Shown here in pieces: positions 37,750 to 41,354 of a stretch of 64,000 bases of DNA. The stretch spans positions 3,866,439 through 3,930,438 of the forward strand of contig NZ_CP007595.1 of NCBI RefSeq assembly GCF_000785535.1, read 5' to 3'. Within the stretch, counting starts at the first letter, position 1. Each line of letters opens with the position of its first letter. Below the pieces are notes generated by a model, which saw only the letters and a list, made by a program, of their open reading frames with translations, was not told the origin of the DNA and ran no database searches. The position numbers were made by a program, and so were the translations under genes. The DNA comes from Arthrobacter sp. PAMC 25486 (GTDB lineage: Bacteria > Actinomycetota > Actinomycetes > Actinomycetales > Micrococcaceae).

Positions 37750-38178
37750 TTAAGGCTTGCTTTTAAGCTTTGGTGAGCGTAGACGAGGGAGGACGAACTC
37801 CGTCAGCAGCGGGGCGAGGTCCTCAAAGTCCTCGGCCGCCTCCACATGCATCCAGCGAATTTCGGCGATCTCTGCGGCCGGAACCACCGACCCTGCGTCC
37901 CAGCGCCCCGGTGCCGTGAACACCGTGGCTTCGATGTCGGTATTGGCTTCATTGGCGGCGGTGCCGTGCCACACACCCATGAGTTCAAGGTCTGCGGCGG
38001 CGATGTTCAGACCCACTTCCTCGGACAGCTCCCGGGAGCCGGCCTCGGCGGCGGATTCACCCAGTTCAGGTTTGCCGCCGGGGTGCATGAATTTTGTGGT
38101 GCCTTGTTTGCGGACAGTCAGGAGCCTGCCGTCGTGGTCGTAGATGCACACGGCAGAGACCCGGAGAATGTTTTTCAC
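37750..38178 (-). CDS. Nudix hydrolase
   Basis: A 142-residue protein with a complete Nudix box, GKPELGE...REL.EEVGL (GX5EX7REUXEEXGU), beginning near residue 34. It probably cleaves a nucleoside diphosphate derivative; substrate unknown. GTG at 38178 has AGGA upstream. It is not adjacent to the NrtR system but lies on the same strand downstream of it, after a 400-bp gap. Confidence 0.88.
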   Translation of the reverse strand: MKNILRVSAVCIYDHDGRLLTVRKQGTTKFMHPGGKPELGESAAEAGSRELSEEVGLNIAAADLELMGVWHGTAANEANTDIEATVFTAPGRWDAGSVVPAAEIAEIRWMHVEAAEDFEDLAPLLTEFVLPRLRSPKLKSKP

Positions 38179-38582
38179 GCCTTCGATCCTACCGGCGAGC
38201 CGCATGTACCGCTGCCGGTCCGCTGCGGCCTATCCCGCCGTCGGACGCGCGGGGCGGCTTGGCGTGTTGCTGGGAAATGTGTGGAGTGGCACTGTTTGGT
38301 CCGGAAATCTCGCCGAGATGGAGGCCAAGCCGCATTGTGCGCCGCGCACTTTGCCGAGGATGGGCCCGGCCCGCAATATGCCGTCAAAGTTGCGGCCTCC
38401 TCGCGGGTACGGCCCATTTTCTCCAATGCGGCTGACGGATCGGTGGGTTTGCACCATTTTCGATGGCCGGGATCGCGGGTTTACCCATTCCCGAGGGTCG
38501 GACGGACGCATTGGCCCCCGGCGCCAGGCCCAGACCCGGGGCCGATGGTCCCGGGGTACCGGACGGATCAGGCTGCCGGCGG
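38179..38582. other. Non-coding gap between Nudix and NAD-kinase-like genes
   Basis: 404 bp with no supported gene. It is GC-rich with several short hairpins (for example around CCCCGGCGCC and CCCGGGGCC near 38517-38540). Open frames here run into the antisense of neighbours and have no ribosome sites. Confidence 0.5.
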
Positions 38583-39473
38583 TTAAATGAGCCGCAGCGG
38601 CCGGGTGCCCAGTTGGACGGTAAGTTCCTGGCCCCACGAAGCGGTAAGCCGGTCGCCTTCCATGCCGTCCCCAAAAATGACTAGCTGGTCGGAGGCGGCC
38701 GTGATGCGCAGCGGCTCTCCGGCTGACAAGAAGCCCTCGGTCAGGGTGGCGCCCGTGGCCGGCGACGGCCAAGCCTCGCGGACAAACCAGGCGAGCCGGG
38801 GGTCGGATGGTGCCGGGAGAGGCCGTCCGCCGCGTTCCAAGGCAATGGATGCACACCAGCCGGTGGCGCCCGTCCCGGTGGACACAATCAACCCCGACGA
38901 CGATTGGCGCTCAACCCGGCCATCCGGCGTCGTAATTTGGTAGCGGGCCGATTGGTGTGAGGAGTGGCCAATGAAGATTTCATTCAGGGCGGAGAGTTCC
39001 TGCCCGTCGTCGAGCCGTGCCGTGACCATGGCCAGGTTTTCGCATTGCATGGCGGACAGGCCCGCGGCTGCCCTGGCGAGCAGTGCGGCGGCGGCTGCGG
39101 GGGAGTGCCTGACCAGGATTCCCGCGTTCACACCGGGCTCCGGGTCGATGCCGAGGACGGGCTGGCCGCTGAGATATTTTGCCGTGTTGGCCACGAGTCC
39201 GTCCTGGCCGACGACGGCGATGACGTCATCCTGGGTGAACATGAACCGGCTCAGGTCGGTGCGTTCCACGTCGGCGAGGCGCCATCCGGCGGGCACCGAG
39301 GCGCGCACCTGGGCCAGGGCGGCCATGATGAAATTGTGCCGTTCCTGGACGGGCGCCAGGGCTCGGCCCCTGGTGCGGAGAAAGAATTCTGCCTGGCCGG
39401 CGGTGGCATGCCGGTCGAGGAGTTCCTGAAATTCGGTGCGCCGGTGGACGACCACGAGGCGGGGAGTTCCCAT
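38583..39473 (-). CDS. NAD-kinase-like protein
   Basis: A 296-residue protein with the NAD/diacylglycerol kinase fold. GQDG (89-92) replaces the canonical GGDG, NE at 164-165 matches the NAD-binding pair, and STGTGATGW (198-206) replaces the usual PTGSTAY glycine-rich segment. These changes mean it may bind NAD or a related nucleotide without classic NAD kinase activity. It starts 4 bp after the SPFH gene with AAAGG inside the SPFH end, so they are an operon. It lies under NrtR-type boxes, which supports a link to NAD or ADP-ribose. Confidence 0.75.
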   Translation of the reverse strand: MGTPRLVVVHRRTEFQELLDRHATAGQAEFFLRTRGRALAPVQERHNFIMAALAQVRASVPAGWRLADVERTDLSRFMFTQDDVIAVVGQDGLVANTAKYLSGQPVLGIDPEPGVNAGILVRHSPAAAAALLARAAAGLSAMQCENLAMVTARLDDGQELSALNEIFIGHSSHQSARYQITTPDGRVERQSSSGLIVSTGTGATGWCASIALERGGRPLPAPSDPRLAWFVREAWPSPATGATLTEGFLSAGEPLRITAASDQLVIFGDGMEGDRLTASWGQELTVQLGTRPLRLI

Positions 39474-39477
39474 GGCC

Positions 39478-40512
39478 TTACCTTTCTGTTGCGGGCAGGA
39501 CGGCCTGACCAGCGGCTGCCGGGGCTTGGAACAATCCTGCCAGTGCGCCGCTCAGCAGGTCCGGGGTGATGGTCAGGTTGTTGATGTTGGGCAGCGAGGC
39601 GGCGGCTTCACGGAAGGCCAAGGCCAGCAGCGTGGCCTGGTCCATGCCCTTGTAGACCTCCATGGCAGCGGCTTCGCGGGCGGCGGCCGCCTCGCCGACC
39701 AGCTTGAGCTGATGGGCCTCGGACGTGGCGCCGATGCCCTGGCGTTCAGCCTCGGCCTGGGCCCGGATGAGTCCGGCAGCGGCCTGCTCCCCGGCTTCCC
39801 GCCGGGCGTTGGCACCTTCCTGGGCAACAAGGTTTTCCCGGCGGGCGGCCAGCTCAATCTTGCTCGCCATCTCATTCTCCGAGATGGTCCTTTCCCGCTC
39901 CACGGCCACTGCCCTGCGCTCGTAAACAGCCCTGTCCGCCTCGGCCTGGAGCTGTTCGCGGACCGGTGTCTGCAGTGCCCTTTCAACGTCAGCCTCCGGC
40001 CGGACGGCCAGGACCTGCACGCCGAGGATTTCAATGCCGGTTGACAGGAGCCGGCCGTCGGCCTGCAAGGCGCCCGTCAGCAGGCCGCGCAATTCACTGA
40101 CCCCGCGCTCCAGTGACTGGGCAAGAGTTGTGGCGGCAATCTGGTCGATCGCGTGGCTTTGGCACAGCTGCCCGATGATGGTTGCCACTTGTTCGCGCCC
40201 GGCCGTTGTTGCGCCGCCGCCCGGCTGAAGTGCAAAGTCGAGGCGGCTGGCAACCGATACAGGATCGTTGAAACGGTAGGTGACATTGGCCTGGACGCTG
40301 ACGTCCTGGTGGTCGCGGGTGATGGCGTGGAAGAGTGTGGGCAACTCCTGGTCGTCCATGGGAACCTCGCTCAATACCGATGCCGCGGGCCGGAACCAGA
40401 ATGCCTGGCCCACGCCCTGGTGGCGGACATCGCCCTTCTGCAGGTGGACGACGTATCCCGTGGGGCTGCCCAGGAAGTGATTGATCCAGGGGTAGCGCTT
40501 GATGGTGGCCAT
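39478..40512 (-). CDS. SPFH/band 7 domain protein
   Basis: A 344-residue SPFH protein. The band 7 region is about residues 20-200 (TRDHQDVSVQANVTYRFNDP, GIEILGVQVLAVRPEADVERAL), followed by an Ala/Glu/Arg-rich coiled coil (about 200-290) as in stomatin/flotillin scaffolds. There is no clear N-terminal transmembrane helix; peripheral membrane binding is likely. GAGGAGA precedes the ATG. It is the first gene of the operon with the NAD-kinase-like protein and faces NrtR across 101 bp. Confidence 0.88.
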   Translation of the reverse strand: MATIKRYPWINHFLGSPTGYVVHLQKGDVRHQGVGQAFWFRPAASVLSEVPMDDQELPTLFHAITRDHQDVSVQANVTYRFNDPVSVASRLDFALQPGGGATTAGREQVATIIGQLCQSHAIDQIAATTLAQSLERGVSELRGLLTGALQADGRLLSTGIEILGVQVLAVRPEADVERALQTPVREQLQAEADRAVYERRAVAVERERTISENEMASKIELAARRENLVAQEGANARREAGEQAAAGLIRAQAEAERQGIGATSEAHQLKLVGEAAAAREAAAMEVYKGMDQATLLALAFREAAASLPNINNLTITPDLLSGALAGLFQAPAAAGQAVLPATER

Positions 40513-40530
40513 GGGGCTCTCCTCACGTTG

Positions 40531-40551
40531 TTATCGTCATTGTGACGATAA
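40531..40551. promoter_or_regulatory. NrtR-type operator, box 1
   Basis: Perfect 9-bp arms TTATCGTCA / TGACGATAA around a 3-bp centre, 18 bp before the SPFH start. It has the same arms as box 2, 45 bp away. Confidence 0.8.
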
Positions 40552-40575
40552 TAAAAGCCTAGGGCCTGCGCACCT

Positions 40576-40596
40576 TTATTGTCAACATGACGATAA
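40576..40596. promoter_or_regulatory. NrtR-type operator, box 2
   Basis: Arms TTATTGTCA / TGACGATAA (one mismatch) around a 3-bp centre, 17 bp before the NrtR start. Each divergent gene has a box in front of it, which fits autoregulation plus control of the SPFH operon. Confidence 0.8.
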
Positions 40597-40613
40597 GTGT
40601 TTAGGGTTGAGTT

Positions 40614-41354
40614 ATGCCTGATGCCTACCCCGAGCCCGCCCGCTTTCCGGTGACGGTCGACGTCGTTGCCCTCACGGTCAGCGGTGGCGCCCTCCAAGTC
40701 TTGTTGGTCACCCGCCTGATTGCGCCCTTTCAAGGCGGTCTGGCACTGCCTGGCGGGTTTGTGCTGCCGGGGGAGGATCTGGTGGAAGCTGCCGGACGTG
40801 AATTGGCGGAGGAAACCGGGGTGGCACAGCTGCCGGGATATTTGGAACAGCTGCAAAGCTATGGGCCACAGGGCCGTGACCCGAGAGGTGACGTGCTGAC
40901 CGTGGCACACCTGCTGCTGGCACCGAACTTCCCGGTCCTGGCCGCCGGCAGTGACGCCGCCCATGCCGGCTGGTATCCGGTCAGTCAGGTTCTGGAGGGT
41001 GACCTTGAGCTGGCCTTTGACCACCAACGGATACTGGCCGACGCCGTGGAGCGGGCCAAGTCCAAGCTGGAGTACTCACCCCTGGGAGCCGCCTTTTGCG
41101 GGCCGGAATTCACCGTCGCGCAACTGCGGGCTGTCTATGACGCGGTGTGGGACACGAAGCTGGATCCCCGGAACTTCCATCGGAAAGCCACTGGAACCCC
41201 GGGGTTTCTGGAAGACACGGGAAAGCTGAGCACCGGTGAGGCAGGGCGCCCGGCGGCATTGTTCCGGCTTGCCCCGGAAGCACTGCCAGTTGCGGGTGAA
41301 GCTGCACAAGCCGTCCTCAACCCGCCGATCATGCGGCCCTCGGAGCGAACATGA
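40614..41354 (+). CDS. NrtR-type Nudix-winged-helix transcriptional regulator
   Basis: A 246-residue protein with an N-terminal Nudix domain and a C-terminal winged helix (about 150-215, [32 protein letters not shown]). This is the NrtR architecture; NrtR represses NAD metabolism genes and is released by ADP-ribose. The Nudix box is intact (GFVLPGE...REL.EETGV), whereas many NrtR proteins have lost catalysis. Palindromic boxes lie in the divergent gap. The 3' end overlaps the YnfA gene by 26 bp on the opposite strand. Confidence 0.88.

Follow-up and report, generated by a model that had tools for sequence, protein, structure and literature searches.

The DNA considered here is a stretch of 64,000 nucleotides (the window) from Arthrobacter sp. 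PAMC 25486, which spans positions 3,866,439 to 3,930,438 of NZ_CP007595.1, a single contig of 4.59 Mb. Positions 38583 to 41354 of the window contain three open reading frames, whose coordinates were confirmed. The forward strand encodes an NrtR-type regulator of 246 aa (40614-41354) and, divergent from it on the reverse strand, lie the genes of an SPFH/Band 7 protein of 344 aa (39478-40512) and of a NADK2-like protein of 296 aa with the NAD-kinase fold (38583-39473), with a gap of 4 bp between the two. Two putative operators occupy the intergenic region, and the unit as a whole appears to be an NrtR-family regulon with new targets. The response to which the set might belong was called undescribed in an initial annotation of this DNA, and no description of the set was found in the searches made of the open-licence PMC literature; the founding NrtR papers may mention it.

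The three genes tend to be kept together. In a sample of 394 genomes of the class, the kinase-like profile matched in 66 and the SPFH profile in 66, with both matching in 65, and in all 65 of these the two genes are neighbours, separated by 20-377 bp. Two genomes fall outside: G418 gave a weak match (E 9.7e-4), and in G356 the SPFH gene lies at the end of a contig. Among the best 80 of at least 574 relatives in GTDB, the loci used for the counts below, the SPFH gene lies upstream of the kinase-like gene in 80/80 and a divergent NrtR gene is present in 62, so that the co-occurrence in relatives raised in the initial annotation is borne out; two of the 80 loci have an in-frame stop in a span used (the SPFH gene of L057 and the NrtR gene of L084). 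No fourth gene is constant, the largest cluster of neighbours reaching only 12 of the 80 loci. The kinase-like gene has a patchy distribution in a set of 58 relatives: 8 have it if the genome itself is counted, one of them as a decayed copy. What is left of this decayed module (L018, contig 47 of G004, same genus) is the C-terminal portion of the kinase-like gene and a fragment matching the regulator, with no SPFH match, and several of the flanking neighbours seen in the window are still present.

The gene set also extends to plasmids of other phyla. In a plasmid collection, the kinase-like protein of Rhizobium etli matched in 71 records and the R. etli SPFH protein in 58, and nine records were opened for gene order. 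Four of them (R. etli, Methylomonas, Providencia and Moraxella) have NUDIX, SPFH and kinase genes in the same order, and their NUDIX proteins carry NrtR_WHD according to Pfam. Another four (S. yangpuensis, Kitasatospora, Roseomonas and Treponema) have the SPFH and kinase-like genes with no annotated NUDIX neighbour, while the ninth, from Cupriavidus, is unannotated there and has side-by-side matches to both proteins. The full set thus stays linked in both Actinomycetota and Pseudomonadota, and a Spirochaetota plasmid has the pair with no NUDIX gene annotated beside it. In both proteins, the Rhizobium, Methylomonas, Providencia and Treponema sequences cluster and that of Roseomonas is nearer to Actinomycetota, and because of this shared grouping the SPFH-kinase pair seems to move and evolve together. 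A phage-borne module was rejected, with no match in 50,697 phage records and none of 40 IMG/VR pattern matches confirmed as a relative. On the Moraxella osloensis plasmid pNP7-1 the trio directly adjoins tetR(H)-tet(H), and plasmids of several genera have matches to C-terminal fragments of the kinase-like gene.

With regard to the regulator, PF00293 (60.1 bits) and PF21906, NrtR_WHD (50.6 bits), both score above their cut-offs, and the protein matches PDB entry 3gz5. The initial annotation described an NrtR regulator with an intact Nudix box, and both parts of this description hold. The box (nt 40755-40823), as read from the sequence, is complete, G48-x5-E54-x7-REUxEExGU, and its pattern, relaxed at three positions, recurs in all 62 linked homologues. 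The protein nevertheless falls below the equivalog cut-off of NCBIfam NF050029, an ADPR-responsive repressor (109.6 vs 400 bits), as do a nadA-linked paralogue of the same genome (128.1) and the R. etli plasmid regulator (221.7). The combination of a Nudix domain with an NrtR winged helix is that of NrtR of Mycobacterium smegmatis (nrtR-nadABC) and of SoNrtR, as described in the available text of PMC6800001, and the position beside an operon with palindromic operators, with an expected role as repressor, is likewise shared with them (PMC6800001, same text). However, the target here is an SPFH-kinase pair and not NAD biosynthesis, and the box has the form TTATCGTCA-N3-TGACGATAA, in contrast to the GTTTTCGA-N7-TCGAAAAC of M. 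smegmatis NrtR and SoNrtR. AraR of Bacteroides is also an NrtR-family regulator of genes outside NAD synthesis, with different targets. Retention of the Nudix catalytic motif distinguishes the present regulator from both MsNrtR, which the available text of PMC6800001 describes as lacking detectable hydrolase activity, and AraR, whose Nudix catalytic residues are lost according to the accessible part of PMC4666351.

The paralogue (genome positions 1439994-1440764, reverse strand) adjoins nadA and has a Nudix box that is degenerate by eye. A related operator, TATAGTCA-N3-TGACTA, lies 25 bp upstream of its gene. Pfam confirms the identity of nadA; the gene after it has a FAD_binding_2 match and is designated nadB from its position only. 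The genome has, elsewhere, a nadA operon with its own NrtR, and control of NAD biosynthesis genes by the regulator of the module was not borne out, since the only box-like site by nadA, within 3 mismatches, adjoins the second NrtR gene. The step taken in the initial annotation, from the usual control of NAD biosynthesis by NrtR to NAD or ADP-ribose sensing by this regulator, is weakened by the presence of this separate NrtR and by the fact that the family also senses L-arabinose (PMC4666351, accessible part).

The palindromes between the divergent genes are TTATCGTCATTGTGACGATAA at 40531-40551 (box 2, proximal to the SPFH gene; 18/20 positions) and TTATTGTCAACATGACGATAA at 40576-40596 (box 1; 16/20), neither assigned to a strand, with a start-to-start distance of 45 bp. 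A single palindrome of such quality is unremarkable, as the window has 63 positions with at least 16/20, 5 of them with 18. Nonetheless, the 101-bp intergenic region has two distinct ones, an outcome seen in only 0.02% of 20,000 first-order Markov sequences, against 3.1% for one. In the 4.6-Mb genome the consensus is found within 3 mismatches at three places, namely both boxes and one site beside the second NrtR gene, and the control pattern, read backwards, is found at one. The box pair is also present in all 6 intact relatives first examined and in 62/62 GTDB loci with a linked NrtR gene, where the two best-scoring 21-mers taken per region, a count made without a shuffled control, match 14-18 of the 18 consensus positions.

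Both boxes overlie a single predicted promoter of the SPFH operon. Its elements, read from the reverse strand, are a −35 TTGACA within box 1 (40580-40585) and, 18 bp from it, a −10 TAGGCT (40556-40561), with box 2 over the expected start region. The initial annotation had assigned a near-perfect 21-bp palindrome to each direction; two palindromes do exist, but one box per direction is wrong, because the boxes overlay the −35 and the −10/start of this one promoter. TTGAC occupies an identical place of box 1 in 62/62 loci, and TANNNT follows 16-19 bp from it in 61/62; box 2 supplies the −10, as its TATCGT, in 46 of these, and the other 15 have it outside box 2. The T that opens TTGAC, base 12 of the box, is fixed in all 62 first boxes, while in the second boxes this position is spread over A (18), C (16), T (15) and G (13), and hence box 1 seems to serve at the same time as the −35. 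Furthermore, the box spacing hardly varies: in the 61 loci with a recognisable −10 it is 34 bp in 39, 33 in 7, 45 in 9, 44 in 3, 42 in 2 and 51 in 1, and in the remaining locus (L087) it is 36 bp. Promoter geometry may therefore govern this distance. In comparison with most loci, the window has its box 2 one more helical turn away from box 1, covering the expected start. Taken together, the layout would suit a repressor of the SPFH operon, with promoter use and repression both inferred from sequence. In five Pseudomonadota intergenic regions, no box in common with Actinomycetota was found, and a strong palindrome was found in R. etli only.

The association of NrtR with these boxes, as proposed initially, is supported by genome comparison not only at the 62 linked loci but apparently also in trans. 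In all 8 genomes of one genus (g60, presumed Streptomyces) that entered both searches, where the regulator is unlinked, an extra box lies near the best NrtR homologue, 37-43 bp from its profile match, in addition to the one or more boxes at the operon. Moreover, NrtR homologues at E≤1e-40 occur in 144 of the 394 class genomes, and are found in 62 of the 65 with the pair compared to 82 of the other 329, a comparison that ignores kinship. Some g60 genomes have further box matches too, and at four loci (L143, L144, L146 and L147) extra NrtR-like boxes lie away from both module and regulator, as possible regulon members or by chance.

The kinase-like protein has an NAD-kinase fold in its AlphaFold2 (AF2) model (pLDDT 94.8), and all 50 fold matches listed are NAD kinases, except 2an1, which is labelled 'putative kinase'. 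Human NADK2 is the nearest among the matches listed, leading the remaining NAD kinases by about 3 Z units, at about 22% identity. The altered motifs reported in the initial annotation, GQDG and STGTGATG, were located at residues 89-92 (nt 39198-39209) and 198-205, respectively. Sequence profiles give little: no Pfam model matched at E≤1, PF01513 included, nor did any match in the four members of the family scanned, and the best NCBIfam score is 32.8 bits vs an equivalog cut-off of 316. Of the residues named as vital in Mycobacterium tuberculosis Ppnk (D85, N159, E160, T200 and Y202) in the available text of PMC8553519, four are kept in the present mapping (D91, N164, E165 and T204), and the fifth, the Tyr, corresponds to W206, as in NADK2. 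In conserved region II, the Thr is kept and Asp and Tyr are replaced by Ser and Trp, both changes being those of NADK2. The short motif NE or ND is present in 80/80 loci, and the motif Asp, the N of NE/D and the region II Thr are invariant in 52 aligned sequences (the alignment takes in 51 of the 80 loci), a result that is partly seed-biased. Unlike human NADK2, the protein has GQDG instead of GGDG, a Thr204 where NADK2 has Lys, and an operon shared with an SPFH gene. A role as the essential NAD kinase of the host is unlikely, since a separate canonical NadK with GGDG is encoded elsewhere in the genome.

The SPFH gene, which the initial annotation called that of a scaffold, is confirmed as an SPFH gene by PF01145 (55.1 bits vs a cut-off of 23.6), with a further weak match to the HflK profile (E 6.4e-4). 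The model shows the SPFH domain followed by a continuous helix (residues 174-288; pLDDT 82.2, pTM 0.49), an arrangement like that of HflK-type SPFH/Band 7 proteins. An N-terminal membrane anchor is typical of many, although not all, members of this family, and SPFH genes elsewhere are accompanied by FtsH or NfeD genes. Here, in contrast to the HflK type, the operon partner is an NAD-kinase-fold protein and no transmembrane-like segment was found, the best 19-residue Kyte-Doolittle mean being 1.15 and values above 1.6 occurring in 1 of 80 homologues. The proposal that the response is membrane-linked is thus unsupported, and peripheral association of the protein with a membrane is possible.

The reading preferred here, to which about an even chance is given, is that of a repressor-controlled module in which a derepressible NADK2-like kinase and an SPFH scaffold are switched by an NAD-derived ligand. 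The NrtR-type regulator would occupy the two 21-bp operators, over the −35 (box 1) and the −10/start (box 2), and block the promoter of the SPFH-kinase operon. By analogy with its family, ADP-ribose or a close relative, a small NAD-derived metabolite, would release it. The Actinomycetota regulator, with its complete Nudix motif, probably also destroys the inducer and so resets the switch; an inducer-consuming regulator is a natural proposal, not a proven one, since the motif is kept in this form. The operon would then yield an SPFH protein, presumably assembling into a ring or scaffold, and an NADK2-like kinase held on it, whose probable reaction is phosphorylation of the 2'-OH of NAD(H) or of a related dinucleotide. 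The recurrence of the gene set in distant bacteria points to an unexplored branch of NAD-related metabolism, and the module offers a genetically tractable bacterial relative of mitochondrial NADK2 together with a testable partner, the SPFH protein. A bolder version, doubtful at present, sees in the set a module for signalling or repair that is shared across phyla. Its SPFH ring would hold an NADK2-like kinase, rebuilt in the phosphate loop, that produces or eliminates a phosphorylated nucleotide of the NAD type, and the dedicated Nudix regulator would both sense and hydrolyse this nucleotide.

Several observations weigh against the repressor-controlled kinase module. NrtR is unlinked in 18 of the 80 loci; 12 of these have a box (at least 14/18) within 300 bp before the SPFH gene, five are boxless and one is cut off by its contig, and no obvious replacement regulator was seen in the 18 with rough gene calls. 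In three genomes (G082, G168 and G397), the pair is present with no NrtR at E≤1e-40 and no operon box within 2 mismatches. For the −10 element only 15 loci are independent, because in the other 46 it belongs to the box consensus. The invariance of the kinase motifs is inflated, as the scan was seeded with a GQDGLVAN or TxGQAEFF peptide. The SPFH model is only moderately confident. Ligands vary within the NrtR family, with ADP-ribose, NAD and L-arabinose named in the accessible part of PMC4666351. The R. etli and Methylomonas plasmid regulators have, by eye, no canonical Nudix box, so inducer hydrolysis is not universal to the module. Additionally, GQDG replaces the GGDG that PMC8553519, in its available text, describes for all NAD kinases, and the substrate or the phosphoryl donor may therefore differ.

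This last change is also the starting point of two alternatives, both considered improbable. In the first, the protein is a pseudokinase or sensor, for which NAD(P)(H) is a ligand but no substrate and which gates the SPFH assembly. The second glycine of the phosphate-loop motif is Q in 26 and P in 3 of the 29 loci found by profile, a fairer count than the 80/80 for GQDG obtained in the search seeded with a GQDG peptide; the Q recurs in those plasmid members from Pseudomonadota and Spirochaetota that were compared, and the position of Ppnk D189 maps to Ser. Against such a loss of activity, the motif Asp, the N of NE/D and the region II Thr are invariant within the limits given above, and human NADK2, described as active in the available text of PMC8553519, has the same Ser, TGTG and Trp changes. 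The second, to which similarly little weight is given, is a kinase for a non-NAD substrate, such as a sugar or another nucleotide, which the regulator would sense as AraR senses arabinose. The GQDG motif, the occurrence of L-arabinose among the family ligands (PMC4666351, accessible part) and plasmid records that label members 'sugar kinase' (others read 'hypothetical') would fit this, as would a match of the regulator to AraR_C; this match, at 25.7 bits, is barely over the cut-off of 23.8 and is exceeded by the NrtR_WHD score, and the retained NE/D and Thr and the lead of human NADK2 among the fold matches listed favour an NAD-type substrate. An anti-phage or ADP-ribosylation conflict module is very improbable: NrtR-related Nudix-HTH (helix-turn-helix) regulators do occur in predicted ADP-ribose conflict systems (PMC9503650, accessible part), and the patchy distribution and plasmid carriage would agree, but the phage and IMG/VR searches yielded no confirmed relative, no third neighbour is constant, and PADLOC, run on 6 proteins and not on neighbours, gave a single weak match (E 0.0055), between the SPFH protein and a helical effector model.

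Next to the module, a gene for a stand-alone Nudix hydrolase lies at 37750-38205 of the window, and it keeps this proximity in 4 of 7 relatives and in 2 of the 80 GTDB loci.

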